64,000 bases of DNA from an uncultured Bacteroidales bacterium (lineage in GTDB: Bacteria > Bacteroidota > Bacteroidia > Bacteroidales > P3): contig ONBK01000001.1 in assembly GCA_900316055.1 (NCBI GenBank), forward strand, positions 62,001 through 126,000, in the 5' to 3' direction. Position numbers and translations under genes: made by a program. Shown here piece by piece: positions 1,640 to 64,000 of the stretch. A model generated the notes under the pieces. The model was not told where the DNA came from. It did not search any database and saw only the letters and a list, made by a program, of their open reading frames with translations. Positions within the stretch are counted from its first letter, which is position 1. Each line of letters starts with the position of its first letter.

Positions 1640-3137
1640 CCTCTATCCCGAACTCGGCCGTATCATTGGTGCCGAAGCCGACCGGCTGGGCATTGACGCC
1701 TATTTCGTGGGCGGCGTAGTGCGCGACCATTTCTTACAGCGTCCCTGCACCGACATCGATGTCGTCTGTATCTCGCCTAATTCCAGCTCCTCCATTGATA
1801 TTGGAGAAGCACTGCAAAGCGACGGAGGAGTACCTTCTATCGGTATTGAACTGGCAAAGGCTGTTTCCAATGCCCTCGGCGGAAGTAAGGTCTCTGTCTT
1901 TAAAACCTTCGGCACTGCCTCTTTCCGCCATAATGACCTCGAGCTCGAATTTGTGGGTGCACGAAGAGAGAGCTATTCTCACGATAGCCGCAAACCCATT
2001 GTGGAGAACGGAACCCTTGAAGACGACCAGCGACGTCGCGACTTCACTGTCAACGCCCTCGCCGTCTGTCTCAATGCCGACCGTTTCGGTGAACTCATGG
2101 ACCCCTTCGGCGGCATACAAGACCTCAACCTCGGCATACTCCGAACCCCTCTTGACCCCGACATCACCTTCTCCGACGATCCCCTGCGTATGATGCGCGC
2201 CATTCGTTTCGCCTCACAGTTAGGCTTCCGCATCGACGATTCCACCTTCGAGGCCATCTCCCGCAACGCCAAACGCATAGAAATAGTCTCCGCCGAGCGC
2301 ATCACCACCGAGCTCAACAAAATCATACTCTCCCCCAACCCATCACTGGGGCTCAAACTCCTTCAAAAAAGCGGCCTCATGCAACTCATCCTCCCAGAAA
2401 TTGCTGCCCTCGCAGGAGTGGAAACAGTAGACGGCCGTGGACATAAGGACATCTTCTTCCACACCATGCAGGTACTCGACAACGTCGTGGAAGGTGAAAG
2501 GTTAAAGGTGAAAGGTGAAGTAGAAGACGCTCAACTTTCACCTCTCTGGCTCCGCTGGGCCGCCCTGCTCCACGACGTGGGCAAGCCCGGCGTCAAACGC
2601 TATGACGCCAAGCAGGGCTGGACCTTCCATGGACATGAGGCTCGCGGCGCCCACATGGTGAAGCGCATCTTCAAACGCCTGCGCCTGCCACTGGGCGAAG
2701 AACTGCGCTACGTCGAGAAACTTGTCATGCTCCACATGCGTCCCATCATTCTGGCCGAAGACATCGTCACCGACAGTGCCGTGCGCCGCCTCCTCTTCGA
2801 GGCTGGCGACGACATCGACGACCTCATGCTCCTCTGCCACGCCGACATCACCACGCGCAACCTCGACAAGCAACGCCGCCACCGCGAGAACTTCGAGCTG
2901 GTGAAGCGCAAACTCGTGGAACTCGAAGAGCGCGACCGCATTCGCAACTTCCAGCCCCCCATCAGCGGCGAAGACATCATGACAACCTTCGGCATCGGTC
3001 CCTGCCGCGAGATAGGCACCATCAAGGATGCCATCAAGGATGCCATCCTCGACGGACAAATTCCTAATGAGCGGGGCGCCGCGGAGCAGATGATGCTCCG
3101 CCTCGGTGAGGAACTAGGTTTGCACAAATCACTTTGA
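1629..3137 (+). CDS. cca: CCA tRNA nucleotidyltransferase / poly(A) polymerase family with HD domain
   Basis: The protein is 502 residues, starting at the ATG at 1629, which overlaps the preceding lipoprotein gene by 11 bases. The N-terminal class II nucleotidyltransferase head shows YFVGGVVRDHFL and the metal-binding TDIDVV. RRRDFTVNALA and the DDPLRMMRAIRFA motif follow, then an HD phosphohydrolase domain with LLHDVGKPG and FHGHEARGA. Enzymes of this type add or repair the CCA end of tRNA in the cytoplasm. A polyadenylating role cannot be excluded from sequence. Residues about 289-306 (ERLKVKGEVEDAQLSP) are an in-frame repeat element sitting between the HTMQVLDNV helix and the HD motif, where homologues have a short loop. 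All catalytic motifs are intact, so the gene is probably functional. Confidence 0.9.
   Translation: MITDLYPELGRIIGAEADRLGIDAYFVGGVVRDHFLQRPCTDIDVVCISPNSSSSIDIGEALQSDGGVPSIGIELAKAVSNALGGSKVSVFKTFGTASFRHNDLELEFVGARRESYSHDSRKPIVENGTLEDDQRRRDFTVNALAVCLNADRFGELMDPFGGIQDLNLGILRTPLDPDITFSDDPLRMMRAIRFASQLGFRIDDSTFEAISRNAKRIEIVSAERITTELNKIILSPNPSLGLKLLQKSGLMQLILPEIAALAGVETVDGRGHKDIFFHTMQVLDNVVEGERLKVKGEVEDAQLSPLWLRWAALLHDVGKPGVKRYDAKQGWTFHGHEARGAHMVKRIFKRLRLPLGEELRYVEKLVMLHMRPIILAEDIVTDSAVRRLLFEAGDDIDDLMLLCHADITTRNLDKQRRHRENFELVKRKLVELEERDRIRNFQPPISGEDIMTTFGIGPCREIGTIKDAIKDAILDGQIPNERGAAEQMMLRLGEELGLHKSL
2493..2546 (+). repeat. In-frame ERLKVKGE-type element inside cca
   Basis: A purine-rich left arm of degenerate GGTGAAA/GGTTAAA units is followed by a short spacer and the beginning of a pyrimidine-rich arm (CTTTCACCTCTC). 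The left arm matches nearly base for base the elements at 57890 and 63738 on this strand and at 16241-16322 on the other. It is inserted without breaking the frame. Confidence 0.8.
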
Positions 3138-3163
3138 TATTTATAAAAAAAAATGTATCTTTG
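3133..3163 (+). promoter_or_regulatory. Bacteroidota-type promoter for the T9SS surface protein operon
   Basis: TTTG at 3133-3136 and TATCTTTG at 3156-3163 are separated by exactly 19 bases, which matches the TTTG/TAnnTTTG consensus of Bacteroidota primary sigma factors. The -33 element overlaps the last codons of cca. The predicted transcript would start near base 3170, about 100 bases before the ATG at 3271. Confidence 0.75.
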
Positions 3164-3166
3164 CAT

Positions 3167-3199
3167 CCGTGTTTTTCCAAAGGATAACACGGTTTTTTT
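3167..3199 (+). terminator. Rho-independent terminator of the uvrC-cca unit, or leader hairpin
   Basis: Arms CCGTGTT (3167-3173) and AACACGG (3186-3192) are followed by seven T residues. It lies only a few bases after the -7 box of the downstream promoter. It could therefore end transcription from cca, or it could sit at the very 5' end of the 3271 transcript as an attenuator. Sequence alone does not decide between these. Confidence 0.6.
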
Positions 3200-3270
3200 C
3201 TGCCACCAACCTGATAAACAAAGAAAAACTAACATGACTATAATGATTATATACTATAAAAATACTACAA

Positions 3271-6200
3271 ATGAACAAAAAGTTTATCATTTTGGCAGTG
3301 TTGCCACTATTCTTTTTTAGTTGTTTTAATTCAAGCCGAGCGCAGACCACCCATCGTCTCGATAGCATCCCTTTGAGCTGGACGGTGACCGTCAATGGTA
3401 CTGCCGTCACGGTAACGCCTTATACCGGTTATGACAATCAGTTAGGCTATGTCAATATCCTCGAGGGCGCCACTGTCGGCGTTATGCCGAACGATAGCGC
3501 GCAGGTGTGCGGTGTGAAGGTTCGCCGCCGAGTGTATGTAAACGGCCACGAGTGCGTGCCTATGAACGACAGTGTGCTATTTGCACTCACCAATATCGGC
3601 GCCACCAGCGAGACCCAAATCGGCGACTACTTTGCATGGGGAGAGACGACAGGAAACAAATCTACTTACTCATGGAGTAATTACCAATGGGGAAATATTC
3701 CCACCGGTTCTTGTACCCGCTATACGGGCAACGACTATTCCGTGTTGCTCCCGAATGACGACGCAGCGCATGTGAACTGGGGCGGCCTGTGGCGCATGCC
3801 TAAGGACAATGAGTGGATGATGCTTTACGACACGACGAACTACGTCCGTACGATAACAACCAACTATAAGGGCACTGGAGTAAAAGGAATGATATACACC
3901 AGAATGACAGGTGCCCACAAAGGAAATACATTCTTCCTGCCTGCTACAGGATATTATGACAACGAAAACTTGATGATACCGGATAGCGGTGAGTATTGGT
4001 CGTCGACCCTCGGAACGAGGGTTTCCATAGGTACCACACAGGGTGCCATTGCGATGGAGTTTTCCACGGGTGGATCTCCAAACATCTATTGTAGAAACGT
4101 TATTGCCCGTGCCGCAGGTATTCCGGTTCGCGCCCTTGTGATGAGCGAATCGCTGGCGCAGCAGAGTCTCGTCAGCGTGGCCTATGGGGATAACGGCATG
4201 TGGACTTTCGTCATGCCCGACGAGGGGACGGTGTTGAAGGCTGTAGGCTGCGGGAGCCCCAACTTGGCATGGAGCAGTGCGGAGGGATTCGTGTATCTCG
4301 GCATAGAAAGGGGTACGGTGCCGGAGCTGAGTGTTTCGGCGAATGTGGCTTTTCACTATGGGAGCAGCGATACTTCCGTGGCGACGGTGAATTCGGTGGG
4401 ACATATCACCCCGAAGCAAGTGGGCACGACGACGATTTATGCCGTACACTACTGGAACGAGGGGGACGGTTATGCCTACGACAGTGCTTATTTTACATTT
4501 CGTGTGCTGGCGCCCGACACTTTGACGTTGTTGGCCGAGCCGACCACGAGGGGTATGGTGAGGGCCATCTGGGCCAATAACTATGTGAATGATTTGGGGG
4601 GTGGGAGATACGGTGTTATACCGGGGACACGGATGGTGGTGAAGGCGTATCCCTATGCGCACTGCCATCTGACCGGGTGGAGCGACGGAGCCGGGGTGTA
4701 TGAGGGGGGGACGGACACGATAGTTGTGGGCGGGAGCATGACGCTGAGGGCGTACTTTGGTTCTGACGGTCTTCTGGTGAGGGCTGCAGTTTACGGCGGA
4801 CTTGAAACGGGCAGCGTAAACGACGGCAGGAGCGACACCACCTTCGTCGTGCAGGAGGGGGGTAGTGTGCAACTGACTGCCACAGCGGCCCCGTGCTACC
4901 ACTTTTCCTATTGGACTGACGGAGTGAGTGTTTTCACTTCGAATCCTCTGACCGTGAGTGCCACGAGGGACACGATTTTCGTTGCTGTATTCCAGAAAGA
5001 CAATCCGGCCAGGGGTGACACTACGGCCATTGGGGAGGGCAGCTACAGTTGGCATGGTACCGACTATACCGAATCGGGTACGTATTACGATACACTGACT
5101 ACAGCTGGCGGGTGCGACAGTATCGTGGCCGCCCACCTCATCATCTTACCCCCGGATGCGGGGGTGCCACGACTGGACAGCATTCCTGTGGGCTGGACAG
5201 TGAGGGTCAACGGAGCACCTGTAGTCGTAACGCCCTACACGCAGTTTGACACGCATCTGGGTTATGTGGACGTGGCTGCGGGCGCGACGGTGGTTGTCAC
5301 GCCTGACGACACGGTGAATGTGTGCGGTGTGAAGGCGCGCCGGCGTGTCTATGTAAACGGGCACGAGTGTCTGCCGATGGGCGACAGTGTGCTGTGGGCC
5401 ACGACGAATATGGGGGCCGACAGTGTGTACCAGGGGGGCGACTACTATGCGTGGGGAGATCCGGTGGTGAACGGGAGCTATGGATGGGAGACATACCGGT
5501 TTGGTTCCATTCCATCGGGCAACTGCAGCCGCTATGCGGGGAGCGACACCTTGACCCTTATTCCCGAAGACGACGCGGCACATGTGGGGTGGGGAGGCCT
5601 GTGGCGTATGCCGACGGAGGAGGATCTGGAGAGGCTCTATGCGTGGGGAGAATATTCCCGGAGCTTGGTGACGGACTATAAGGGTACGGGCGCCAAGGGG
5701 GTGATTTATACGCGGAGAGGGGGAGCGTTTGAGGGCAACAGTCTGTTCCTGCCTGCGGCGGGTGTGCAAGACCACACGAGCATCACGCATGCGGACACGG
5801 GATACTATTGGTCGTCGACGCTTCACAGAGAAGCCAACACGACGCGACATGCGAGGGTGATGGTTTTCTTCACGCAGACGGATGAATATCTGAACAGCTG
5901 TATTACCTCGTATGCCGACCGATGCGCGGGGTTGTCGATCCGACCGATGTTGGTGAGCGACTCATTGGCGCAGCTGAGCCTTGTAGCGGTGACGGCTATG
6001 GGTAACGGCAGTTGGAGTTTCGCGATGCCCAACGGGGGTGTGGTGGTGAGAGTCGAGGGCTGCGGGGACCCCGCGTTGGCGTGGAGCCGAGAGGAGGACA
6101 GTATCTATATGGGTTCGGACTGGTCGCAGCCTATGTTGGATAATCCTGCGGGACTGACAGTGCATTATGGCAGCAGCGACACCACAGTGGCGACGATTGA

Positions 6201-14824: not shown

Positions 14825-16060
14825 CTATAGTTTATTATTGAGAACGAGGTCAAATTGTTCCCAGAACTCGGGAAATGATTTGTCGACCACGCCTGGGTTG
14901 TCGATTTGAAGGTCGGGGAAGCGGAGTTTGAGGGGGGCGAAAGCCATGGCAATGCGGTGGTCATTATAGGTTTGGACGGGTTCGACAGGACGGAGTTCGG
15001 AGGGGTAGATAATCATCTCCTCTTCAGTGCAGGTGACTTTACCGCCCATGCGGCGGAGCTCGTTGCCGATGGCCTGCATGCGGTCACTCTCCTTGAGTGC
15101 TATATTACTGACTCCCTTAAGAGTAGCTCTGACTTTGGCAGCCGCAGCGGCCACGGCAAAAGTGGGCACTAGGTCGGGGCAGTCGATGCAGTTGAACTGT
15201 ATGTTTCTGGAACATTCACCACCCCCTTGGATGGTGATAGAGCGTCCGGCTGCACGATAGGGTGAGCGCACCTCGGTGGAAGTGACACCGAGGAGGTGGA
15301 AGAAACGGTCGGTGGCACTATCTCCCTGGCAGGATTCGAGTTGCAGTCCCAAAAGGCGGATGCGAAGCTCGGGACGCAGGAGCGCCATGGTGTAGAAATA
15401 GGAGGCCGAAGACCAGTCGCGCTCGATGGCTACGGCGGCAGACTTGAGTCTGGTGGGCATATGCTGCACATAATAGGTACGTCCATTGGAAGAGCGGCGC
15501 ACCTCAATGCCGGCCTGACGAAGAATGTCGCAAGTCATCTCGATATAGGGACGCGAGGTGGGACGCTGAGTCATGGTGAGCGAAATGCCCTCGGGCATGC
15601 GGGGGGCAATGAGGAGTAGTGAACTGACAAACTGACTACTGAGTAACGGATCGACAGAGACAGTACGTCGTGTAGGCACACTGCCTTGAATCTGAACCGG
15701 GAGAAAACCTTCCTGTTCGGTACATTCCACACGCAAACCCATCTGGCGGAGGGCTTCAATCAGAGGCGCCATGGGCCGCTGACAGAGGCGGTCGTCGCCG
15801 GTGAGGATATGATGGCCAGGGGTGATGGCCAGCAGCGGCATGAGGAAGCGTGCCACAGAGCCTGCATTATTGCAGTAGTAGACGTGCGAAGAGTTTTCGC
15901 TTGTTATTTGGGCAAGCAGGCGACGAAGCAGACGAGTGTCACCCGAGGTAGAAGGTTTGGTGATACGGAAACAACTGCCTGTGAGGTGATTAATCATCAA
16001 CCACCGATTGCTCATGCTCTTGGAGGCAGGCAGAGAGATACGTATGTCGTTAGTCTTCAT
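14825..16060 (-). CDS. aroA: 3-phosphoshikimate 1-carboxyvinyltransferase (EPSP synthase)
   Basis: The protein is 411 residues, the length usual in Bacteroidota. It has the N-terminal LPASKSMSNRWLMI phosphate-binding motif, NNAGSVARFLMPLLAI in place of the common GNSGTAMRL signature, and the C-terminal ALKESDRMQAIGNELRRMGG and DHRIAMAFA. It makes EPSP from shikimate 3-phosphate and PEP in aromatic amino acid synthesis. The start overlaps the end of the upstream activator gene by 11 bases, so translation may be coupled. The altered GNSGTA motif is worth noting, but the remaining substrate-binding motifs are in place. Confidence 0.92.
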   Translation of the reverse strand: MKTNDIRISLPASKSMSNRWLMINHLTGSCFRITKPSTSGDTRLLRRLLAQITSENSSHVYYCNNAGSVARFLMPLLAITPGHHILTGDDRLCQRPMAPLIEALRQMGLRVECTEQEGFLPVQIQGSVPTRRTVSVDPLLSSQFVSSLLLIAPRMPEGISLTMTQRPTSRPYIEMTCDILRQAGIEVRRSSNGRTYYVQHMPTRLKSAAVAIERDWSSASYFYTMALLRPELRIRLLGLQLESCQGDSATDRFFHLLGVTSTEVRSPYRAAGRSITIQGGGECSRNIQFNCIDCPDLVPTFAVAAAAAKVRATLKGVSNIALKESDRMQAIGNELRRMGGKVTCTEEEMIIYPSELRPVEPVQTYNDHRIAMAFAPLKLRFPDLQIDNPGVVDKSFPEFWEQFDLVLNNKL

Positions 16061-17285
16061 TGATGTTGTATTCCTTGAGTTTTCGATAGAGTGTACGTTC
16101 GGAGATGTGGAGGTCGGCGGCAGCCTGCTTACGGTTGCCCTGATTGTGCTCTAAGGCGCGGAGGATGGCACGTCGTTCCCGATCCTCGAGTCCCAAGGCC
16201 TCCTCCTCGATGATTTCGGGAGTGACAAATTCCTCGTCATGAGAGGTGAATGGTGAGAGGTGAGAGGAGAAAGGAGCAAGATTGTCGGCCGTTTCTCCTT
16301 TCACTTTTAACCTTTCTCCTCCATGAATGGCAAGTTGGGAAACCATCTGGCGGAGTTCGTTGATTTCGCCTCGCATCTCGTTGATCATCTGCCCCATGGA
16401 GAGTGCTTTGAGGAGCAACTCACGGTCGGTAATTTGGTTGGTAGGTGCCGGTGCGGGAGACTCGGGAATGAGGGCAGGCATGCGCTCGGCAGGAATATAG
16501 GAGAGGTAGTTCTGCAGGATGTCGGGAGTGATGCTGCGGGCAGTCTCGACAACAGCAATCTGCTCGGTGATATTTTTGAGCTCGCGCACGTTACCGTACC
16601 AGGGATAGTTCATGAGCATGGTCCGGGCATCCTCGGTGAGGACGATGGGAGGCATGTGATATTTCTCGGCCACATCGGAAGAGAACTTACGGAAAAGCAA
16701 CGGGATGTCCTCCTTGCGTTCACGCAGAGGAGGCAGATAAATGGAGAGTTGGTTGAGACGGTAATAGAGGTCTTCACGGAAACGGCCTTCGCGCACGGCA
16801 CGAACAATGTCGACATTGGTGGCAGCAACAACACGGACATCTATCTTCAAGGGCGTGGATGAACCCACAGGGATTATCTCGCCGTTCTCGAGGACTCGGA
16901 GGAGCTTGACTTGCATGGCGAGGGGCAACTCGCCAATTTCGTCGAGAAAGATGGTACCGCCGTCAGCCTCCTCGAAATAGCCCTTACGGGTGCGATCAGC
17001 ACCAGTAAAGGCTCCTTTGACGTGACCGAAGAGTTCACTCTCGATGGTGCCTTCGGGGATGGCTCCGCAGTTGACAGAGATGAGGCCTCGCCCCTGACGA
17101 ACGTGCTTACGGGTACTGTTCTCATGGATGATGCGCGAGAAGACATCCTTACCCACACCACTCTCGCCAGTGATGAGAATGGAGAGATTGGTAGGTGCAA
17201 CCTGAATGGCCTTGTTGAGAGCCATAAGGAGTTTGGGGTCGTTGCCGATGATATCGTATCGTTGTTTGAGGGTTTGAATATCCAT
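16050..17285 (-). CDS. Sigma-54-dependent Fis-family transcriptional activator without receiver domain
   Basis: The protein is 411 residues. The AAA+ domain starts almost at the N-terminus: Walker A GESGVGKDVFS near residue 38, the sigma-54 contact loop GAFTGADRTRKG near 92, Walker B GGTIFLDEIGELPL, and the RFREDLYYRLNQ sensor region. A Fis-type helix-turn-helix ends the protein (NQGNRKQAAADLHISERTLYR). There is no response-regulator domain, so activity must be controlled by expression or by partners. Residues about 322-348 (GERLKVKGETADN, then LAPFSSHLSPFTSH) are an in-frame repeat element in the linker between the AAA+ and Fis parts. The target genes are unknown. In Bacteroidota this activator is often next to general housekeeping genes, as here. 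Confidence 0.88.
   Translation of the reverse strand: MDIQTLKQRYDIIGNDPKLLMALNKAIQVAPTNLSILITGESGVGKDVFSRIIHENSTRKHVRQGRGLISVNCGAIPEGTIESELFGHVKGAFTGADRTRKGYFEEADGGTIFLDEIGELPLAMQVKLLRVLENGEIIPVGSSTPLKIDVRVVAATNVDIVRAVREGRFREDLYYRLNQLSIYLPPLRERKEDIPLLFRKFSSDVAEKYHMPPIVLTEDARTMLMNYPWYGNVRELKNITEQIAVVETARSITPDILQNYLSYIPAERMPALIPESPAPAPTNQITDRELLLKALSMGQMINEMRGEINELRQMVSQLAIHGGERLKVKGETADNLAPFSSHLSPFTSHDEEFVTPEIIEEEALGLEDRERRAILRALEHNQGNRKQAAADLHISERTLYRKLKEYNINED
16241..16322 (-). repeat. In-frame ERLKVKGE/LSPFTSH element in the sigma-54 activator
   Basis: On the minus strand a left arm of GGAGAAAGGTTAAAAGTG-type units encodes GERLKVKGE. A spacer encodes TADN, and a complementary right arm of TCACCTCTCACC-type units encodes the SSHLSPFTSH tail. 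The arms are largely reverse complements of each other, so the element could fold back on itself. It has the same design as the element at 63738-63813. Confidence 0.8.
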
Positions 17286-17342: not shown

Positions 17343-19335
17343 CTCTATGTAATGCTAAGCCGAGTTGGCGGCGGAGGTCGACAAGTTGTTTCTTCTCGGC
17401 GAGGAGTTTGTCGAGGTCCTCTTTGCTCTTGGCTTCACGGAAACGGCGGGCGTTGTCAGCAATGCGGTTGTCAATACACCTCATCTTGAATCCAAGGAGG
17501 GTTTCCGTGAGGTCTTCCTGAAGGTGATCCTCTAGGGTGGGCACAAAGACCTGTTTCTGACGCCAGGTGTCGCTGATACGGTAGGTGTCGAGCATGAGGG
17601 AGATAGCAAAGGAGCGAAGAGCCTCATCATCGTCGGTAATGAAGCGTGAAGCATCGGGTTCTTCTCCACGGGCAAGAGTGTCGCAATAGTAGAGATAGAT
17701 ACGCAGGCAGAGAGGGTCGCTGAAAGAGAGTTCGTCGGCCTGAAGGTCGTTGACGACAAGTTCGGCAAGAGTGTAGGTGGCATACTGAGGAGTACCGTCT
17801 TCGGCAGTCACCTGGAGTTCGATGGAATTGTGACCATAGTTGAGGAGGAGCTGGATGAGATGACGCTCGAAGGGATCTACGGAAGAAGGGGCAAGTGTGT
17901 TCTGAATGTTCTGAGTGTTCTGAATGTTCTGAGTGTTCTGATTATTCTGAACACTCTGATCATTCTCTTTTTCTTTTTCCGCGTAGGCTTTCTGGCGGTT
18001 CTGATTGATAGCCTTGGAAAGCTCCGATGCCAAGGCCTCCTCGGGGACATCCAGTAGGTGTGCACATTGAGCTATATACTCAGTGCGTTCGATGAGATCG
18101 GGCACAAGGGCGATGGTATTCACCGTATCCCTGACGAGTTCGGCCTTGCGGATGGGATCGTCCTTGACCCCGTCAAGAAGCACACGAGTCTTGAAAATAA
18201 GGAAATTATCCTCGTGAGTGGCCAAGTATTCTTGGAGAGCCGTAGAGCCGTATTTCTGAGCATAACTGTCTGGGTCTTCCCCGTCGGGGAAGAGGACACA
18301 GCGAACATGCATGCCCTCGGCGAAAAGAAGGTTGACGGCGCGAAGGGCGGCCTTGATGCCGGCAGAGTCGCCATCGTAAAGAACGGTAACATTGGGTGTA
18401 TAGCGCTTGATAAGGCGTATCTGCTCGGTGGTGAGAGAGGTGCCACAAGAAGCTACGGTGTTTTCCACTCCCGACTGGTGCATGGAGATGACATCGATGT
18501 TACCCTCTACAAGATAGCACTTATTAGCCTTGGAAATAGCCGTGCGAGCCTGGAAAAGGCCGTAGAGGATGCGCGACTTGTTGTAGATGTCGGAGTCGGG
18601 GGAGTTAACATATTTGGCAGCCTGCTTCTCGGAACTGAGGACGCGGCCGGAGAAGCCGAGGACACGACCAGAGATGCTGTAGATAGGGAACATAACGCGT
18701 CCACGGAATCGGTCGTAGGCGCGACGGCGCTCCTCCCTATCCCCGGCCTCCTTTTCTCCTGCCTCCTTAAAAATTGTCAGGCCGGTCTTTTCCAGGACTG
18801 CATCGCTGTAGCCGTTCTTTCGGGCGTGGTCCGTGAAGTTAGTCCACTCATCAAGACAGTAACCAAGTCCGAAACTCTTGATGATGTCGTCGCTGAGACC
18901 ACGACCATGAAAATAGCTTAGTCCCACTGCACGACCCATCTCGTCGTTGTAGAGGAGGTCAGCGAAATACTGCTGGGCGAACTCGGAAAGGTGGAAGAGG
19001 GCATCACGTTCATTCTGACGCTCCTTCTGCTCCTCGGTCTGTTCCTCCTCCTGAATCTCGATATTATATTTCCGGGCCAACCAGCGGAGAGCCTCGGGAT
19101 AGGTGAAGTGTTCGTGTTTCTTGAGGAAGGAGACCACATCGCCAGCCTCGCCGCAGCCAAAGCATTTGAAGATGCCTTTGGAGGGCGAGACATAGAAGGA
19201 GGGTGTCTTTTCGTTATGGAAGGGGCAGCAACCTATATGGTTGGCTCCACGCTTCTTAAGCGATACAAAGTCACCTATCACCTCCTCTATACGGGCGGCA
19301 TCCATGATACGTTGTATGGTCTCTTGGTCAATCAT
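17332..19335 (-). CDS. dnaG: DNA primase
   Basis: The protein is 667 residues from the ATG at 19335. A longer frame begins upstream, but the family start (IDQETIQRIMDAARIEEV) and the promoter both favour 19335. It has a CHC2 zinc finger (CPFHNEKTPSF, then FKCFGCGEAGDVVSF), the catalytic core with RVMFPIY.ISGRVLGFSGR, and the TOPRIM motifs VEGNIDVISMHQSG and VLYDGDSAGIKAA. The C-terminal helicase-binding region follows. It makes RNA primers for DNA replication. Residues about 457-480 are a low-complexity run of QNTQN/IQNTQ units encoded by an in-frame repeat. They lie in the linker before the DnaB-interaction domain, which explains why they are tolerated. Confidence 0.95.
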   Translation of the reverse strand: MIDQETIQRIMDAARIEEVIGDFVSLKKRGANHIGCCPFHNEKTPSFYVSPSKGIFKCFGCGEAGDVVSFLKKHEHFTYPEALRWLARKYNIEIQEEEQTEEQKERQNERDALFHLSEFAQQYFADLLYNDEMGRAVGLSYFHGRGLSDDIIKSFGLGYCLDEWTNFTDHARKNGYSDAVLEKTGLTIFKEAGEKEAGDREERRRAYDRFRGRVMFPIYSISGRVLGFSGRVLSSEKQAAKYVNSPDSDIYNKSRILYGLFQARTAISKANKCYLVEGNIDVISMHQSGVENTVASCGTSLTTEQIRLIKRYTPNVTVLYDGDSAGIKAALRAVNLLFAEGMHVRCVLFPDGEDPDSYAQKYGSTALQEYLATHEDNFLIFKTRVLLDGVKDDPIRKAELVRDTVNTIALVPDLIERTEYIAQCAHLLDVPEEALASELSKAINQNRQKAYAEKEKENDQSVQNNQNTQNIQNTQNIQNTLAPSSVDPFERHLIQLLLNYGHNSIELQVTAEDGTPQYATYTLAELVVNDLQADELSFSDPLCLRIYLYYCDTLARGEEPDASRFITDDDEALRSFAISLMLDTYRISDTWRQKQVFVPTLEDHLQEDLTETLLGFKMRCIDNRIADNARRFREAKSKEDLDKLLAEKKQLVDLRRQLGLALHRVIN
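17896..17967 (-). repeat. In-frame QNTQN repeat in dnaG
   Basis: Degenerate nine-base units CAGAATACT/CAGAACATT (seen as TGTTCTGAG/TGTTCTGAA on the plus strand) encode alternating Gln-Asn-Thr and Gln-Asn-Ile. The same units form the N-terminus of the four-helix-bundle gene at 37090. Confidence 0.75.
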
Positions 19336-28924: not shown

Positions 28925-29395
28925 ATGAATAACCGAAAACTATTGAGAATGATGCTCTATGTCAGCATCATTTTCATTTTTCAATTCTCGATTTTCGATT
29001 CGGCGACGGCTCAGAATAGCCGTTTCACCATCAAGGGCGACGTTGCTGTCAACGCCATGGTGGAACGCCATGTGGAATTCAACAACCGAGTGAAGACCAT
29101 CCCCGGATTTCGTGTACAGATAGCCTCTTTTTCGGGTGCCAACTCAAAGAATAGCGCCTTCGGCCTGCGCGACCGTTTTGTTCTCGATTACCCTGCCACC
29201 CAAGCCTATATCGTCTTTGACGAGCCCAACTTCAAAGTGAAGGTCGGAGACTTCCGCACCCGCCTCGAAGCTTATGCTTTCTTACAGCAAATCAAGGACG
29301 TATACAAAGGATACATCATCAAAGACAACATCAACCCTGAACCTCCCGTCGTCGATGACTATGCCCCCGACGACTTGGAGAACGAGATGGAATAA
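28925..29395 (+). CDS. Exported SPOR-domain protein
   Basis: The protein is 156 residues. A signal peptide (MMLYVSIIFIFQFSIFDSATAQ) has a hydrophobic part partly encoded by TTTTCATTTTTCAATTCTCGATTTTC units resembling the intergenic repeats. The mature protein contains a SPOR domain (GFRVQIASFSG, then NFKVKVGDFRTRLEAYAFLQQI), which binds denuded peptidoglycan glycans. It probably acts in the periplasm at sites of wall remodelling. It follows the usp gene by 18 bases, in the same transcript. The acidic C-terminal tail has no recognisable function. Confidence 0.82.
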   Translation: MNNRKLLRMMLYVSIIFIFQFSIFDSATAQNSRFTIKGDVAVNAMVERHVEFNNRVKTIPGFRVQIASFSGANSKNSAFGLRDRFVLDYPATQAYIVFDEPNFKVKVGDFRTRLEAYAFLQQIKDVYKGYIIKDNINPEPPVVDDYAPDDLENEME

Positions 29396-37089: not shown

Positions 37090-37752
37090 ATGAACAATCC
37101 GAATAATCAAAATACTCAGAATAATCAGAATACTCAGAATAATCAGAATATTCAGAATACTCAGAATACTCAGAGTAATCAGAATTACAAGACCCCTCCC
37201 ATCACCTTCCTACCACAGCATGGGCACTACCGCCACCTCCGCGTTTACCAAGTCACAGAGATCATCTACGACATCACCTACTACTTCACCCAGCACTATC
37301 TGAGCAAGGGTGACCGCACCGTCGACCAGATGGTGCAAGCCGCACGCAGCGGCAAACAAAACATCGCCGAGGGCAACCAGGCAGCAGCCACCTCCAGCGA
37401 GACAGAAATCAAGCTCACCAATGTCGCTAAAGCAAGCCTCGAAGAACTGCTCGACGACTACGAGGACTACCTACGGGTGCGCAACCTGCAGCAGTGGGGC
37501 AACCTCCATCCCCGCTACGAGAAGATGCGGCAGTATGCCCGCAGCGAGCAAATCAAGAAAGACTATGCCGACAAGATACGGCAGATGAACGATGAAGAGA
37601 TTGCCAATCTTTGCATCACCCTCATCCACCAAGCCATGTACATGCTTCACAAGCTCTTGGTGACAATGCAAAACCGCTTCGTCACCGAAGGCGGCATCAA
37701 AGAGCGCATGTACCAAAGCCGTACCAGCTATCGCAACGCTAGCGACAAATAA
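37090..37752 (+). CDS. Four-helix-bundle protein with suffix domain (S23/IVS-related)
   Basis: The protein is 220 residues. The first 35 residues are a low-complexity NNQNTQN/IQNTQ run encoded by an in-frame repeat. The folded part begins at about residue 50 (HYRHLRVYQVTEIIYDITYY). It shows the four-helix-bundle signature of the 23S rRNA intervening-sequence family (DRTVDQMVQAARSGKQNIAEG, SETEIKLTNVAKASLEELLDDYEDYL), followed by a helical suffix. Such proteins form homopentamer-like helical assemblies, and their role is unknown. It has no obvious own promoter and lies 68 bases after the etfA terminator. It marks the last housekeeping-type gene before the defence island. Confidence 0.75.
   Translation: MNNPNNQNTQNNQNTQNNQNIQNTQNTQSNQNYKTPPITFLPQHGHYRHLRVYQVTEIIYDITYYFTQHYLSKGDRTVDQMVQAARSGKQNIAEGNQAAATSSETEIKLTNVAKASLEELLDDYEDYLRVRNLQQWGNLHPRYEKMRQYARSEQIKKDYADKIRQMNDEEIANLCITLIHQAMYMLHKLLVTMQNRFVTEGGIKERMYQSRTSYRNASDK
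37092..37186 (+). repeat. In-frame QNTQN repeat at the start of the four-helix-bundle gene
   Basis: About ten nine-base units (AATCAGAAT/ACTCAGAAT) encode the N-terminal Asn/Gln-rich run. The same units occur in dnaG at 17896-17967. Confidence 0.75.
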
Positions 37753-49644: not shown

Positions 49645-51153
49645 ATGGCACTACCAATAAACATAGAAGACCTGCTAAACAAGCATAAGGTTGAAAGCAA
49701 CCGTATTGAGTTTAAAAAAGGATGGAACCCAACCAAAATTTACCATAGCATTTGTGCTTTCGCAAATGATTTTGACAATATTGGCGGTGGATACATCCTT
49801 GTCGGTGTCGAGGAAAAGGACGGTGTTGCTGTACGTCCGGTAACAGGGATTCCCGTAGAACAACTTGATAAAATACAGCGTGAAATGGTTAACTTCAATA
49901 ATATGATGGATCCTTTTTACGCTCCTCGCATATCAGTTGAAGAAGTTGACGAGGTCTATATCCTTGTTATCTGGGCTCCAAGCGGAATAAATAGGCCCTA
50001 TGCAGTGCCAACAGACGTGAAATCAAAACACAACAAACAATATGCCTACTATATACGCTACGGAACCACATCAATAGAGGCAAAAGGGGAAAGACTTGAT
50101 GAACTTCGAGAAATGGCCAACCGAGTGCCTTTCGACGATAGGGGCAATCCAGATATCCAACCAGCAGATATTTCCACGACGCTGTTGCGTGATTACCTTG
50201 TGACTGTCAACAGCCGTTTGGCCAATGAAGATTTAACAGGAAATCTACTGGGCATCTTGGAACAAATGAACTTACTGGATGGCCCCACGGAAAAACGCAT
50301 GATCAAGAATGTCGCAGCAATGATGTTCAGCGATCAACCCACAAAGTTTTTCCCCGTTTCCCAAGTAGAAATTGTGACTTTCCCAGAAGGCCGGGAGAAC
50401 AATCCAAACAACTTTATCGAAGCCCCACCCATCAAAGGCCCTATTCCATACCTAATCAAAGAAGCCCTGAACTATTTGCGCATAAACGTCATTAAAGAGC
50501 AAATATCCAAACCACGGAATGATGAACGGTCTATACGTTTCTTCAACTACCCATATCAAGCATTGGAAGAAGCTGTTGTCAATGCCCTATATCACCGCGA
50601 CTATCAATTGCGCGAACCCGTAGAAATCACTATTGAGCCCGAACGAATCTCAATACTTAGTCACTCTGGCCCAGATAGGTCTATCAGCATGGCAGCAATC
50701 AAGGAAGCTAAAATTTTACGATCCAGAAGATACCGGAATCGCCGACTTGGCGAGTTCCTCAAAGAACTAGATTTGACTGAAGGGAGAGCAACAGGTATCC
50801 CTACCATACAGGATGAATTAAGAAAAAATGGATCGTCAAAAGCCACAATTGAGACTGACGATGACAGAACGTATTTCTTGATAGATATCCCTTGTCACCC
50901 TTATTGGCACCAGTCGGTAGAACTTGACGTTTTAAATGAGTTGGTAAATAAGAAAGTGATAAGTTCAAGACAATTCCAAATCATAAAACTTATTCAAGAG
51001 ACTCCTCATTTAACACAAATAGAGATTTCCAGCCTGATTGGTGTTAGTCGTCAGACCATATATAAAGATATATCTCATTTAACCGATTTAGCAATTATTA
51101 AACGTAACGGCTCACGTAAAAGCGGATACTGGATAATTTCAACTTTACAATAA
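49645..51153 (+). CDS. AlbA_2 (Schlafen-type) domain protein with GHKL ATPase and HTH
   Basis: The protein is 502 residues. The N-terminal AlbA_2/Schlafen domain (residues 10-140) shows ESNRIEFKKGWNP, ICAFANDFDNIGGGYILVGV and YYIRYGTTSIEAKGERLDEL. A GHKL/HATPase_c_4 region near 300-390 carries ALEEAVVNALYHRDYQLREP and the following SHSGPDRSI. A C-terminal winged helix-turn-helix (LTQIEISSLIGVSRQTIYKD) ends the protein. Such proteins are usually called transcriptional regulators or divergent-AAA-4 proteins, and many occur in defence islands. The last codons (STLQ) run into a tandem repeat array. A link to the adjacent OLD-like gene is plausible from position only. Confidence 0.85.
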   Translation: MALPINIEDLLNKHKVESNRIEFKKGWNPTKIYHSICAFANDFDNIGGGYILVGVEEKDGVAVRPVTGIPVEQLDKIQREMVNFNNMMDPFYAPRISVEEVDEVYILVIWAPSGINRPYAVPTDVKSKHNKQYAYYIRYGTTSIEAKGERLDELREMANRVPFDDRGNPDIQPADISTTLLRDYLVTVNSRLANEDLTGNLLGILEQMNLLDGPTEKRMIKNVAAMMFSDQPTKFFPVSQVEIVTFPEGRENNPNNFIEAPPIKGPIPYLIKEALNYLRINVIKEQISKPRNDERSIRFFNYPYQALEEAVVNALYHRDYQLREPVEITIEPERISILSHSGPDRSISMAAIKEAKILRSRRYRNRRLGEFLKELDLTEGRATGIPTIQDELRKNGSSKATIETDDDRTYFLIDIPCHPYWHQSVELDVLNELVNKKVISSRQFQIIKLIQETPHLTQIEISSLIGVSRQTIYKDISHLTDLAIIKRNGSRKSGYWIISTLQ

Positions 51154-51390
51154 AGTTTACAATAAAGTTTACAATAAAGTTTACATTACAAATCCTGCAA
51201 CAAAGTTTACATTACGAATCCTGCAATAAAGTTTACAATAAAGTTTACATTACAAATCCTGCAATAAAGTTTACAATAAAGTTTACATTACAAATCCTGC
51301 AACAAAGTTTACAATAAAGTTTACATTACGAATCCTGCAACAAAGTTTACAATAAAGTTTACATTACGAATCCTGCAACAAAGTTTACAA
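51141..51390. repeat. Tandem repeat array of AAAGTTTACA and AATCCTGCAA units
   Basis: About 250 bases are built from two alternating modules: AAAGTTTAC(A/C)A in twelve or so copies and TTACRAATCCTGCAA in six copies. The larger period varies between about 27 and 50 bases because the first module is present once or twice per unit. Copies are nearly identical, and no unique spacers are present. The AlbA_2 gene stop lies in the first unit. Confidence 0.85.
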
Positions 51391-51613
51391 TCCGTAAAGC
51401 AGGCAGGAAAATTGGAAATCCGCAGAGAGACTCAATCAAGACTACTGCATACAACCCATGATTCCTCCACTCCGCCACCAGAACAGGCGAGAACTATGTA
51501 CTTTGCAAAAGAATAAAAACCTTAACGATAACCTTAACTTTAACGATAACCTTAACCTTGACCTTCACTTTTTTGTATACTATAAGGAGAATGGCGGTTT
51601 GAATTTAAAAAAA
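51391..51613. other. Non-coding gap with TTAACGATAACC repeats
   Basis: Apart from the tandem array before it, the gap between 51154 and the promoter at 51614 holds no convincing gene. At 51516-51570 there is a run of AACCTTAACGATAACC-like units. The same units return between the metallophosphoesterase and cupin genes at 53937-53967. Confidence 0.55.
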
Positions 51614-56750: not shown

Positions 56751-56754
56751 GGAT

Positions 56755-57195
56755 TTAGAACCAACCGGTCATGCTTGCGCCGCCGACTGTAATAATAAAG
56801 CGGAGGGTTTTGCCGAGAAACATTACCAGCAGCGTTTTCCAAGGGCTGATGCGCATCAGACCCAAAGCGATGGCGATGAGGTCGCCCACCAGCGGCAACC
56901 ACGAGAAGAAGGCTGCCCACACGCCGTATTTATACACACGGTTGTGTACCTTCATCAGCTTCTCACGATTAATCTTGAAGTACTTCTCGAGCCATTCCCA
57001 CTTGCAGAGCCATCCCATGAAGAAACTGATCATGCCTCCAAGCGTGTTGCCCAGCGAAGCCACCAAGACGACAACCCATGGGTCGTAGTGCAATGCCAAC
57101 GCGCCGATGGCCAGCGTCTCCGACGAGAACGGGAGGATGGTGGCCGCCAGCATGCACCCCAAGAAGAGGCCGAAAAGTCCTAAATTAGTAAGCAT
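56755..57195 (-). CDS. YqaA/DedA-related membrane protein
   Basis: The protein is 146 residues with about four membrane helices. FSSETLAIGALALHYDPWVV, LVASLGNTLGGMISFFMGWL and WLPLVGDLIAIALGLMRIS match the small YqaA-type branch of the SNARE-associated/DedA family. Such proteins probably move lipids between membrane leaflets or support membrane homeostasis. It is transcribed on the minus strand. A repeat block separates it from the DMT transporter, and a 76-base gap separates it from the divergent GNAT-HD gene. Confidence 0.85.
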   Translation of the reverse strand: MLTNLGLFGLFLGCMLAATILPFSSETLAIGALALHYDPWVVVLVASLGNTLGGMISFFMGWLCKWEWLEKYFKINREKLMKVHNRVYKYGVWAAFFSWLPLVGDLIAIALGLMRISPWKTLLVMFLGKTLRFIITVGGASMTGWF

Positions 57196-57271
57196 TCCTT
57201 CCAGTAACGACCATCAACAGAATTTATTGTATCGGCGCAATAAAAAAGCGCGAACAGCGTTATCATGGCGT

Positions 57272-58411
57272 ATGAATATCCGAAAATCCACCCTCGAAGA
57301 CATCGATCCTATCTTGAGCATGTATGACCATTCGCGCAGCGTGATGCGTGCCGACGGCAATATGACCCAATGGGTGGGGTATCCGCAGAGGGAGGACATC
57401 CTGGAGGATATTGAGAGGGGGGTGTCATATATAGTGGAAAGTGGAAAGTGGAAAGTGGAAAGTACAGGTACCTTCGCTTTAGTGCCGGGTATCGAGCCCA
57501 CCTACGGCTATATCGACCATGGGCGCTGGATTGACGAACAGACGCCCTACGCCACCCTACACCGCCTGGCTGCGATGCCCAATAGCTGCGGCATCGCCGA
57601 CATCGCTTTCTGTTACGCCAAAGAGCACTTCTCCCACCTACGTGTGGACACCCATCACGACAACCGGCCGATGCGTCATATTCTCGAGAAGCAGGGCTTT
57701 GTCTACTGCGGAATCATCTACATGCCCGATGGAGCCCCACGCGACGCCTACGAATGGTGGCGCTACGACGAGGTACCCACCGACCTAAAGGAGTATGCGG
57801 AAAGCGTGATACTCCCACAACACGAACACTACGACGCTGCCCATCGGCCCAACCATATACGGAGGGTCATCGCAAGGGCGATATGTATAGGTGAAAGGTT
57901 AAAGGTGAAAGGTGAGACGGCTGTCGCATGCAATAACTCTCACCTGATTTACGCCGCGGCGGCGATGCACGACATCGGCATCTGCGAAGGTCGCGAGGTG
58001 CACCATCTGGCCTCCGGACGCATTATCCGTGCCGACCAAAACCTGCGCCGCTGGTTTACTGAAGAAGAGATTGAGATGATAGCCCAAGCCGCCGAGGATC
58101 ACCGCGCTTCCGCCACCACGAAGCCACGCTCCCTGCTGGGTTGTATCATTTCCGAAGCCGACCGCGACATCGAACCCGAGACCATTGTGCGCCGCACCGT
58201 GGAATACGGCCTCAGCCACTACCCCGAGCTCGACCTTGAGGGTCACTGGCAGCGTACCCTCGACCACCTGCATGAGAAATACGCCGAAGGCGGCTACCTG
58301 AAACTATGGATGGACGACTCTCCCAACGCAGCACCGCTGGCGGAACTTCGTGCGCTTATCAAAAACGAAAGAAGACTAAGAGAAATGTTTTTAGAAATAA
58401 TGGGCCGATAG
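57272..58411 (+). CDS. Fusion of GNAT acetyltransferase and HD phosphohydrolase-like domain
   Basis: The protein is 379 residues from the ATG at 57272 (MNIRKSTLEDIDPILSMY). Residues 1-170 are a GNAT domain (YGYIDHGRWI, LHRLAAMPNSCGIADIAFCY, LRVDTHHDNRPMRHILEKQG). Residues about 190-379 are an HD domain (HYDAAHRPNHIRRV, AAAMHDIGICEGRE, HHLASGRII, CIISEADRDI). The fusion is unusual and its substrates are unknown. Two in-frame low-complexity elements interrupt it: VESGKWKVEST at about 55-65 and GERLKVKGETAVACNNSHL at about 207-225. Each lies in a loop of its domain, and catalytic-type residues are intact. A terminator follows. Confidence 0.8.
   Translation: MNIRKSTLEDIDPILSMYDHSRSVMRADGNMTQWVGYPQREDILEDIERGVSYIVESGKWKVESTGTFALVPGIEPTYGYIDHGRWIDEQTPYATLHRLAAMPNSCGIADIAFCYAKEHFSHLRVDTHHDNRPMRHILEKQGFVYCGIIYMPDGAPRDAYEWWRYDEVPTDLKEYAESVILPQHEHYDAAHRPNHIRRVIARAICIGERLKVKGETAVACNNSHLIYAAAAMHDIGICEGREVHHLASGRIIRADQNLRRWFTEEEIEMIAQAAEDHRASATTKPRSLLGCIISEADRDIEPETIVRRTVEYGLSHYPELDLEGHWQRTLDHLHEKYAEGGYLKLWMDDSPNAAPLAELRALIKNERRLREMFLEIMGR
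57434..57464 (+). repeat. In-frame GTGGAAA repeat in the GNAT-HD gene
   Basis: Four perfect seven-base units (GTGGAAA) in a row encode VESGKWKVES. Matching units lie in hemW at 30438-30466. Confidence 0.7.
57890..57945 (+). repeat. In-frame ERLKVKGE element in the GNAT-HD gene
   Basis: The left arm is identical to that in cca at 2493. The spacer encodes TAVACNN, and a short right arm (CTCTCACCT) can pair with the left arm. Confidence 0.75.
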
Positions 58412-61589: not shown

Positions 61590-61624
61590 AAAATAGATAT
61601 TATTTTAAGTATAAAAACAAACTG

Positions 61625-61656: not shown

Positions 61657-61664
61657 TCATCGAC

Positions 61665-61900: not shown

Positions 61901-61930
61901 TTTGCGTCTCGGAATTTTTTCGTACTTTTG
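61901..61930 (+). promoter_or_regulatory. Promoter of the FAD/Fe-S oxidoreductase gene
   Basis: TTTG (61901-61904) and TACTTTTG (61923-61930) are 18 bases apart, about 43 bases before the ATG at 61974. Confidence 0.7.
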
Positions 61931-61973
61931 CATTTTGAAAAATTATATAAAATAATTCAAATATTTTACCAAA

Positions 61974-64000
61974 ATGTACAAGATTGAACAGCATCCGATA
62001 CTTGACATTCCCGAGAGGGAGGTAGTTGAATTTATGTTTGACGGCCAAAAGGTCCAGGGTCGCAAAGGCTACACGATAGCGAAAGCGCTTCACGAGGCCG
62101 GCTTCCCCGTACACAGTCATTCTCTCGATGGCCGCAACCGCTCTTTGGAATGCGGCATCGGCAAGTGCGGTGCCTGCGAGATGCTGGTCGACGGCAAAGT
62201 GCGAAGAATCTGCATCACCCCCGTCGACGGGGTGAAAGAGGTGCGCATCATCGCCCACGAGGCTGACCTCCCGGGTGTCACCTTCGACGCCCCCGCCAAA
62301 GACGAGGCCGCAAAAGACGTCACCATCTACAAGACCACCGTGGCCATCATCGGTGCCGGTCCTGCAGGTCTCGCTTGCCGCGAGCAACTCAACGCTTTCG
62401 GTATCGACAATCTTGTCATCGACAACAACGGCCGCATCGGCGGTCAGTTCAATATGCAGACCCACCAGTTCTTCTTCTTCGAGAAAGAAAAGAAATACGG
62501 TGGTATGCGTGGCTTCGATATCGCCAAGACTTTGGCGGGTGACAGCCAGGAGGGCATTCTACTTAACAACACCGTGTGGGACCTCCTGGAAGGTCCGCGT
62601 ATCGCCATAAAGAATATCCTCACCAGCGAGATGGCTTACGTTGACGCCCAGTTCCTCGTTGTGGCCACGGGTGCAGTACCCTTCATGCCGGCCTTCGAGA
62701 ACGATGACGTGCCGGGCGTCTACACCGCCGCCGTGTTCCAGAAGATGATGAACCAAGAGCACACTCTACTCGGCAAGCGTGTGCTGACGGTGGGTGCCGG
62801 CAACATCGGCTACCTCACCTCCTACCAGGGCATGCAGGCCGGCGCCACCATCAAGGCCATCATCGAGGCCATGCCCCGCGAGGGCGGCTTCCCCGTCCAG
62901 GCCAACCGCGTGCGCCGCCTCGGCATCCCCATCATGACGGGTTACACTTTGGTGCGCGCCATCCCCAATGCCGACATGACCGGTATCACGGGCGCCGTCA
63001 TCGCCAAGTGCGAGAATTTCAAGCCCGTCCCCGGCACCGAACAACTCATCGACGATATCGACATCATCAATATCTGCACCGGCCTCGTGCCCGACAACCA
63101 GCTGCTCACCAAAGGTAAGGAGCTCTTCGGCCACCACGTCTACGGCGTGGGCGATGCCGTCCGCATCGGCGAGGGCACCAGCGCCGTGCTCCGTGGCCGC
63201 CAATCGGCCTACGAGATAGCACAGGAGCTGGCCATCCGCTTCAACTACGACGACTATCTCGACATCTCGCGCCAGTATATCGACTCGCAGCAGCACCCTG
63301 TGCGCATCCTCGAGAAACCCAACCTGCCCAGCGTGGAGCGCATGTCGGCAAAGCCGTTCGTCCAGCTCGACTGCCTCTACGGCTTCGCCTGCAACCCTTG
63401 CACCTTCAGCTGTCCTCAGGGCGCCATCTCCAAACCCACCACGAGCAGCACCCCGACGGTAGACTACGACAAATGCATCGGCTGCATGGCCTGTGTCAAC
63501 CACTGCCCGGGTCTGGCCATCTTCGGCTATGATATGGCCAAGAACTGGTGCTTCCTGCCTATCGAATACGAAGTAGCCGACGGCGCCGAAGTGTTCCTGG
63601 TGGACAACAACGGTAAAAAGATTGGCGAGGGCAAGGTCGAGAAAGTCCTCAAGAAAGACAACAAGACCAACGTGGCCCGTGTATTCGTGGCACAAGTCAA
63701 TGGGCAGATGACCGATGTGAAGGGCTTAATCGTCCAAGGTGAAAGGTTAAAGGTGAAAGGTGAAACTGAAGAGGCCACTAACCTTTCACCTCTCACCTCT
63801 CACCTTTCACCTACCTACATCTGCCATTGCGAGGACATCACCGAGGAGCATCTGCTTGAGGTGGTAGGCGACCGCAAGTACATCTCGGTCGACGAGCTCA
63901 AGCATATCACCCGTATGGGAATGGGCCCCTGCCGCGGCAAGCGCTGTATCGCCCGCGCCCGTGGCGTGCTCCGTGCCCACGGCATCGAGCTCACCGGCGA
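61974..64000 (+). CDS. Multidomain Fe-S/FAD oxidoreductase (3' end outside window)
   Basis: At least 675 residues are encoded, and the frame is still open at the end of the window. A 2Fe-2S domain (Fer2_4, LECGIGKCGACEMLVDGKVR) lies near residues 25-85. A pyridine nucleotide-disulphide oxidoreductase core follows (VAIIGAGPAGLACREQL near 122 and VLTVGAGNIGYLTSYQG near 268). A ferredoxin-like region with two Cys clusters (CLYGFACNPCTFSCPQG, CIGCMACVNHCPG) lies near 460-510. A BFD-like 2Fe-2S domain comes last (YICHCEDITEEHL, then GMGPCRGKRCIARARG). This domain set resembles the alpha subunit of sarcosine/opine/proline-type dehydrogenases. The substrate would be defined by partner genes downstream. 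Residues about 589-614 are an in-frame ERLKVKGE element between domains. Confidence 0.85.
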   Translation, partial: MYKIEQHPILDIPEREVVEFMFDGQKVQGRKGYTIAKALHEAGFPVHSHSLDGRNRSLECGIGKCGACEMLVDGKVRRICITPVDGVKEVRIIAHEADLPGVTFDAPAKDEAAKDVTIYKTTVAIIGAGPAGLACREQLNAFGIDNLVIDNNGRIGGQFNMQTHQFFFFEKEKKYGGMRGFDIAKTLAGDSQEGILLNNTVWDLLEGPRIAIKNILTSEMAYVDAQFLVVATGAVPFMPAFENDDVPGVYTAAVFQKMMNQEHTLLGKRVLTVGAGNIGYLTSYQGMQAGATIKAIIEAMPREGGFPVQANRVRRLGIPIMTGYTLVRAIPNADMTGITGAVIAKCENFKPVPGTEQLIDDIDIINICTGLVPDNQLLTKGKELFGHHVYGVGDAVRIGEGTSAVLRGRQSAYEIAQELAIRFNYDDYLDISRQYIDSQQHPVRILEKPNLPSVERMSAKPFVQLDCLYGFACNPCTFSCPQGAISKPTTSSTPTVDYDKCIGCMACVNHCPGLAIFGYDMAKNWCFLPIEYEVADGAEVFLVDNNGKKIGEGKVEKVLKKDNKTNVARVFVAQVNGQMTDVKGLIVQGERLKVKGETEEATNLSPLTSHLSPTYICHCEDITEEHLLEVVGDRKYISVDELKHITRMGMGPCRGKRCIARARGVLRAHGIELTG
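63738..63813 (+). repeat. In-frame ERLKVKGE/LSPLTSHLSP element in the oxidoreductase gene
   Basis: This is the most complete example. The left arm GGTGAAAGGTTAAAGGTGAA encodes GERLKVKGE, the spacer encodes TEEATN, and the right arm of ACCTTTCACCTCTCACC units encodes LSPLTSHLSPT. The arms are close to perfect reverse complements, so a long hairpin can form in DNA or mRNA. Confidence 0.85.

Follow-up and report, generated by a model that had tools for sequence, protein, structure and literature searches.

Heptamer-repeat inserts read in frame within protein loops of an uncultured Bacteroidales bacterium and its relatives

In the accounts cited here, palindromes that are read as protein come mainly from Rickettsia and a few mitochondria, and dispersed heptamer repeats are mainly intergenic. 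The Rickettsia palindromic elements (RPEs; Ogata et al. 2000, 2002) have a length of about 150 bp, and in R. conorii close to half of them are located within open reading frames (ORFs) (PMC10969869). Dispersed heptamers are represented by the STRR-type repeats of cyanobacteria and the GGGAATC repeats of Xanthomonas and Nostoc (PMC4692102), as well as by the TAACTGA heptamers of Beggiatoaceae and a few Bacteroidetes (PMC4679880), and both sources describe them as lying mostly between genes or being under-represented in coding sequence. In this work, by contrast, heptamers were found inside coding loops: within a 64,000-nt stretch (hereafter the window) of the draft genome of an uncultured Bacteroidales bacterium (P3) of the gut, four unrelated genes carry inserts with a common purine-rich arm encoding the peptide GERLKVKGE. 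We consider it probable that dispersed degenerate heptamer repeats (GGTGAAA/TTTCACC) are the source of these inserts, which would be pieces of them compatible with coding, repeatedly copied into loops, linkers, and signal peptides.

Among the systems cited, the inserts are closest in behaviour to the RPEs and closest in build to the heptamer repeats of cyanobacteria, Xanthomonas, and Beggiatoaceae. As in Rickettsia, the repeat DNA lies in frame in unrelated genes (33 of 33 exact copies and 43 of 43 TTA/TCA copies, see below), belongs to several families, is missing from some orthologues (the loops of cca, TsaB, and GNAT-HD), and encodes a peptide tolerated by the host protein. Unlike the RPEs, however, the inserts are built from a degenerate heptamer, stop codons set the bounds of sense copies, many copies lack the second arm, repeat families replace one another at one loop, and the host belongs to another phylum; instead of a palindrome of about 150 bp there is an arm of 27–39 bases, accompanied by a complementary arm in 17 of 43 copies. 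The resemblance to RPEs that an earlier note on this DNA had pointed out holds for the mode of action (in-frame position, empty orthologues) and not for the unit of about 150 bp. The NCBIfam library holds RPE models, and none of them was among the matches listed for 10 proteins (at least 25 matches for two of these).

The likeness to the STRR-type heptamers consists in degenerate, dispersed seven-base tandem units that sometimes form inverted repeats; unlike those mainly intergenic repeats, GGTGAAA-family arrays in our sample lie in coding loops and signal peptides, and their units differ from the cyanobacterial ones quoted in PMC4692102. Nematomorph mitochondrial palindromes are likewise inverted repeats within protein genes, gained and lost between species, for which template switching has been proposed (PMC6649704), but their arms are near-perfect, kept similar by conversion, and encode conserved residues, whereas here degenerate heptamers occupy variable loops. 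The palindromic, spreading PARCEL repeats also encode protein, yet as tandem 25-residue domains in ORFs of unknown function (PMC2996958) and not as short inserts in loops of housekeeping enzymes. In the open-access literature (subscription papers lay mostly outside it), we found no mention of the encoded peptides and, among the records listed, no account of such coding repeats in Bacteroidales.

Inserts and heptamer arrays in the window and beyond

The left arm GGTGAAAGGTTAAAGGTGAAAGGTGA was found as an exact match at 2493-2518, 57890-57915, and 63738-63763 of the plus strand and, with three mismatches, at 16319-16294 of the minus strand, and 100 shuffles of the window gave no match. A fifth, weaker match (three mismatches; 63786-63811, minus strand) is the right arm of the last exact copy. 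All four left arms encode GERLKVKGE in frame within long ORFs. The near-identical arm reported for four unrelated genes in the same frame was thus borne out, and the inserts are real.

In cca, encoding tRNA nucleotidyltransferase (ORF 1413..3137, plus strand, with the true start inside the listed ORF; Pfam domains PolyA_pol and HD), the purine arm GGTGAAA GGTTAAA GGTGAAA GGTGAA occupies 2493..2519 and a short pyrimidine arm, detected by the array scan, 2528..2547. In the sigma-54 activator (ORF 16050..17285, minus strand), the insert lies in the linker that joins the AAA+ lid to the Fis-type helix-turn-helix, with its left arm at 16290..16321 and its right arm at 16239..16276 (array scan); this copy had been placed at 16241, which is the low end of the right arm. 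The GNAT-HD protein (ORF 57107..58411, plus strand) carries the left arm at 57890..57916 and, as read from the sequence, a weak right arm, CTCTCACCT, at 57937..57945 (best 10 of 12 bases), in addition to a second, GTGGAAA array (ESGKWKVES) at 57433-57463. In the FAD/Fe-S oxidoreductase (ORF 61974..63998, plus strand, running off the window), the arms are located at 63738..63764 and 63775..63815, the latter again found by the array scan. RNA folding z-scores against dinucleotide shuffles amounted to -6.5 (FAD), -3.6 (sigma-54), -1.7 (GNAT-HD), and -1.2 (cca), so that the fold-back is clear in two of the four copies. The expectation that a complementary arm follows each left arm holds for the long arms of the FAD and sigma-54 copies; this second arm is short in cca and weak in GNAT-HD. 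At the level of predicted domains, the Pfam domains of the hosts (assigned in all four cases) remain recognisable despite the inserts.

The left arm is composed of four degenerate heptamers, and such units are abundant. Tandem arrays were counted in 718 kb of the genome (about 30% of it, window included), where period 7 was the commonest of periods 4 to 18, with 135 arrays (63 in coding sequences predicted by a simple greedy ORF picker in place of a gene finder, 72 intergenic) against 0 in a first-order shuffle, in line with the degenerate heptamer build proposed before. AAAGGTG arrays (15 of 15) and ACCTCTC arrays (7 of 7) lie inside coding sequences; GTTTAAA-type arrays, which have stops in every frame, are all intergenic (25 of 25). 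Looser scoring of the GGTGAAA family gave 61 coding and 24 intergenic segments versus 14 in shuffled sequence. Outside this sample, long intergenic (GGTGAAA)n arrays are present in contig L081 and at the end of L082. The arrays at L081 5400-5700, 6700-6900, and 8150-8393 and at the L082 end contain GGTGGAA variants and GGTTATTTTAAGG interruptions, and some of them lie at contig ends, where assembly breaks.

Signal-peptide-like hydrophobic stretches near predicted N-termini are also written in heptamers: ATTTTCA encodes SIFNFQFSI, TTTCACC encodes LLLFTLHLSPFTSQAQ, and ATTCTTC encodes LFFILHFSFFI. Such stretches occur at 28970-29000 of the window and in L065 (4677-4715), L069 (15997-16031), L076 (6208-6240), L077 (3331-3366), and L092 (7203-7235). 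Annotators should be aware that repeat DNA makes up many of the variable loops and some of the signal peptides in these genomes.

An exact 23-base word of the arm occurs at eight places in the genome of the window, all eight within ORFs, in sense and in the one frame giving GERLKVKGE. Three of them are the cca, GNAT-HD, and FAD copies (the sigma-54 copy is not exact), and the other five hosts, as read from their translations, resemble LacZ, TsaB, a UvrD-type helicase, YigZ, and RibD. In a survey of 190 genomes of the family, the word was found in 13, all of one genus, at 34 places; 33 of these copies were fetched, and 33 of 33 are in sense and in the GERLKVKGE frame. Orthologous copies were counted separately here and in the other copy counts, and since some of the 34 are orthologous (helicase, TsaB, RibD), the independent sites are fewer. 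In the genome and its family, all copies of the exact word that were examined thus share a single frame.

Among named genome contigs, at least 117 stretches contain the exact word. By an automatic rule, and with taxa taken from record titles, copies in sense in a long frame make up 90 of 99 in Bacteroidota outside Mucilaginibacter, one of five in Mucilaginibacter, and three of 18 in other phyla; several copies of this last group lie visibly inside heptamer arrays. The Bacteroidota records are, by title, largely rumen and gut Bacteroidales or Paludibacteraceae. Viral contigs gave 0 exact matches, and a viral origin of the insert was rejected on this ground. It is also worth mentioning that in rumen Bacteroidales contigs L125, L175, L178, and L205 several secreted-looking proteins share an N-terminus, KVKGERLKVKG followed by FLSIFNFQFS, i.e., two heptamer families joined with the charged part first into a repeated signal-peptide cassette.

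The reading-frame filter

In the arm, the middle base N of GGT GAA AGG TNA AAG GTG AAA GG decides between a stop (A or G) and a sense codon (T or C), and this stop-base test distinguishes the variants that the process supplies from those that selection retains. Among the copies read in context, all 33 TTA copies and all 10 TCA copies are in sense and in frame, whereas none of the 10 TAA and none of the 35 TGA copies is. The TAA copies are all antisense in an open frame; for the TGA copies, read at part of the listed places (the list being itself a lower bound on their number), a script called 29 antisense in an open frame and six neither, although some of the 29 are by eye intergenic arrays (L081). 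Antisense copies often encode signal-peptide-like stretches, e.g., TFHLSPFTS..AQ. The selection for an open frame that the earlier note had supposed is supported by these counts.

The genetic code also accounts for the uniformity of the arm. A pure sense (GGTGAAA)n array meets TGA every 21 bases, and therefore nearly only arrays with GGTTAAA or GGTCAAA in register are seen in sense; with one TTA unit no more than about 39 bases can be read through (KVKGERLKVKGER), and it is this limit on the sense array that makes the arm uniform.

Variants at the first and third base of the deciding codon were found at 7 and 12 places, respectively, in 120 genomes. In sense, the only codons besides TTA and TCA are CTA, TCG, and TAT, once each; six other variants are antisense, and the arrays of C11 and C27 account for ten TGG places. 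CGA, AGA, GGA, and TGG, though open too, were not found in sense at this codon in any of the 120 genomes. Such a narrow spectrum argues for copying of two lineages over repair of each stop, and independent in-place repair was rejected on this basis. Translational bypassing elements (byps), i.e., inserts skipped by the ribosome, were likewise discarded as a candidate, as stop-bearing variants never occur in sense in genes and open ones do.

Turnover of loops in orthologous proteins

The relatives compared are draft assemblies, largely from metagenomes. Cca was detected in 117 of the 120 genomes of the genus, and 50 Cca proteins were aligned and placed on a tree, which was built without the loops and whose bootstrap had not settled. 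Loop A (DNV..LWLRW) has at most 7 residues in 22 of these proteins, 8 or 9 in five, and 14 to 62 in 23. The long loops were labeled as GGTGAAA, GTGGAAA, GTGGAGA, CCCACTA, AACACTG, and ATTCTCA types and two longer palindromes, with no clear repeat in G058, G077, and G019, and 12 of the 23 filled loops passed a heptamer score, which the best control window (up to 12 being taken from each gene) passed in five of 23. On the tree, loop A underwent at least 26 changes of state (26.9 for shuffled labels), 17 of them between filled and empty, and filled and empty sisters are joined by short branches (G095-G102, G059-G020, and G049-G076). In 50 species, a single loop of this enzyme thus preserves the trace of at least 26 gains, losses, or swaps, and sister sites are found empty; together with the stop-base test, this makes the way in which repeat DNA becomes protein sequence directly testable. 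A small form, VVEGESSP, also exists, and from G099 to G088 cca takes a 21-base step from a one-heptamer stage. In the best 120 of 8000 scored Cca proteins, loop A was empty in 62, small in 13, filled in 42, and unparsed in three; one protein with 93% identity had the same loop A and a different loop B. An AlphaFold2 model of Cca was unusable for placing the loops (mean predicted local distance difference test score of 57; query without the N-terminus).

Longer palindromes (LPASGG.. and LTPQPP..) fill loop A in six of the 50 species. The LPASGGNPGN..DFQDFAKRE palindrome, with a loop of 96 to 186 bases, was observed in G014, G042, G049, G079, and G115 (contigs L250, L247, L225, L251, and L249, respectively); it folds strongly in most copies, and G014 has one in loop B too. 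In loop B of G105 (L222) and P0055, the sequence NRAESGKW-HPEGELNTMEKKNNVVKK-VESGEVSI stands in place of NRAESGKWKVESGEVSI of the relatives, apparently an insert within a heptamer insert.

TsaB was detected in 118 of the 120 genomes, and 30 sequences were read. Its first loop is VNGEMEIL in G105 and VKGEMEIL, with one GGTGAAA, in G084; in G000 and G094 it is VKGERLKVKGEMEIL, exactly three heptamers (21 bases) longer than in G084, and G075 has the TCA form. At the same site, G091 contains a GAATGAA/GAATTAA array, in which TTA once more takes the place of a TGA that would end the frame, and G045 and G059 contain fold-backs of other families. About 45 bases further on, a second loop holds a pyrimidine array in G000, G084, and G059 and a different one in G055. 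In G094 the first arm is present and the second absent, which indicates that arms lying in two loops can be gained separately.

The remaining hosts in the window were each compared by alignment with 30 orthologues. For GNAT-HD, three rows (G041, G051, and G056) were a visibly non-orthologous stretch and were ignored; most of the 27 usable orthologues have a short loop and a few a longer one, with a GTGGAAA-type fold-back in G074. In FAD orthologues the linker differs in sequence, and some species have NTQNTQ, KDLKDLRDLKDL, or LTFNSQLSTFNSQ repeats there; the linker of G096 has the repeat family of the window. All sigma-54 activator orthologues read have a linker of at least 10 residues, with no clear empty form and, in some species, LPTTHYPLPT, HSPLSTIHSPL, or LTPNPSPRGEG. 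Recurrent arrival in tolerant loops, with relatives lacking the insert, is therefore seen in cca, GNAT-HD, and TsaB, where the empty sites are clean; relatives of the FAD and sigma-54 hosts have a linker of other sequence. The GERLKVKGE family proposed by the earlier note is real, but it is one of many repeat families replacing each other at the same loops; on the whole, the observation made there is confirmed and its interpretation partly supported.

Fold-back, polarity, and the origin of the inserts

Within 120 bases of 43 sense arms, a pyrimidine array was found downstream in 17 cases and upstream in none (13 of 1500 in random stretches). Folded with its downstream sequence, the arm reached a mean z of -1.56 against shuffles, with 12 of 43 under -2, and with its upstream sequence it did no better than shuffles (mean -0.10; four of 43). 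Fold-back is hence common but not general, being strong in some copies and absent in others. In 78 inserts from five host genes, the 5' part had the higher purine content in 29 (a difference of more than 0.2) and the lower in six; 23 of the 26 heptamer-type inserts lean purine-first (20 versus 0 at the 0.2 threshold). Inserts in Cca loop A had a mean fold z of -1.69, as compared with -0.22 elsewhere in the gene, and nine of 23 were under -2. Among all inverted repeats of the sample (334 stems, 274 of mixed composition including terminator-like ones), 39 were purine-first and 21 pyrimidine-first, and the strong polarity is thus a property of the heptamer type and not of every stem. As a purine-loop-pyrimidine palindrome is the same on both strands, the polarity would point to a DNA process and not to translation.

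The word GCTGACGC lies at most 50 bases after the arm in five of 43 sense arms (expected 0.07), and TGACGC in seven of 43 (expected 0.3). A conserved hairpin core was considered and dropped, since TGACGC shows no general link with stems (16 of 355, as compared with 11 of 247, 13 of 276, 9 of 284, and 8 of 231 for four control words).

The array pool, the exact copies in unrelated genes, the empty relatives, the replacement by other repeats, and the frame filter are observed, and from them we infer templated copying from short homology with fold-back intermediates. The pool of heptamer arrays of many families would supply the sequence. A new copy would arise by a templated step using short homology, a resident GGTGAAA heptamer gaining three heptamers (21 bases) as in TsaB, and this step would often leave an inverted repeat with the purine arm first, the product expected of template switching through a hairpin. 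A dedicated transposase would not be needed. Copies closing the frame would be removed from genes, and open ones (GGTTAAA/GGTCAAA in register) would remain. The encoded peptide is probably without a conserved function.

Several observations weigh against this reading. No complementary arm lies within 120 bases in 26 of the 43 sense arms, and in TsaB the arms are separated by host sequence, in two loops. Of the 23 long Cca loops, five fail the heptamer score and also fall outside the two palindrome types. Variable linkers such as the one in the sigma-54 activator may in some cases simply evolve fast, as linkers ordinarily do. Antisense copies are absent among the 43 TTA/TCA copies, though two of the three antisense frames would be open; better tolerance of the charged peptide is a possible reason. 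All genomes are drafts, largely metagenome-derived, and they revealed neither a donor copy nor a target duplication nor the movement itself.

A bolder version, which we regard as a tentative possibility, is that strand-symmetric copying is ongoing, with fold-back template switching primed by about seven homologous bases rewriting loops, linkers, and signal peptides genus-wide. If so, proteins would continually gain new sequence from tandem-repeat DNA and its changing hairpin families, with stop codons as the only bound.

Less likely is a true mobile palindromic element of the Rickettsia or REP/RAYT-like type, i.e., a hairpin moved by a trans-acting enzyme, with arms decaying or changing later. 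The purine-first polarity is expected from one palindromic unit inserted on either strand, and the 12 arms folding with their downstream sequence at z under -2, together with the longer palindromes of the same cca loop, fit such an element. However, the second arm is absent in many copies, the arms sometimes lie in separate loops, and the exact arm occurs in no viral contig. Y1 transposase domains, the REP/RAYT feature, are present in 73 of the 120 genus genomes and lacking in five of the 13 carriers of the exact arm (no PF01797 match in G014, G076, G096, G102, and G119, some of which are incomplete genomes); the genome of the window has two weak Y1 matches. Given this missing association, a Y1 transposase was rejected as the mover. 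REP elements have a GTAG-type tag beside the hairpin.

Purely local growth, in which heptamer arrays arise by slippage from chance seeds and are kept if the frame is open, seems rather improbable. The one-heptamer stage and the 21-base steps (TsaB G084 to G000; cca G099 to G088) are what it would produce, as is the small form VVEGESSP, but the identical TTA or TCA unit stands at the same place in unrelated genes with no other open codons to speak of, and the 23-base word is exact across 13 genomes.

We give very little credence to a functional hairpin or peptide (mRNA structure, regulation, or binding motif) kept for that function: some copies have strong predicted hairpins, but in close relatives the same loop is empty or carries unrelated repeats, and the window contains no Rfam family besides one tRNA. 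An assembly artefact or an ancient loop of each protein family, suggested by the draft assemblies and by some long arrays at contig ends, is hardly credible, since relatives lack the insert or have other sequence at the loop and separately assembled species share the same insert at the same site (helicase in L003, L054, and L055; TsaB).

Finally, repeats of other periods were noted in the window. Nine-base repeats encoding QNTQNIQNTQ (17897-17959 and 37092-37185) are located within a DnaG-like primase and, in a second ORF, at the N-terminus, the same habit as that of the heptamer inserts with another period. A tandem array of a 38-base unit (51144-51391; about five copies, 97% matches) lies at the end of ORF 49645-51153, and a gene set resembling type I restriction-modification is found upstream of it.

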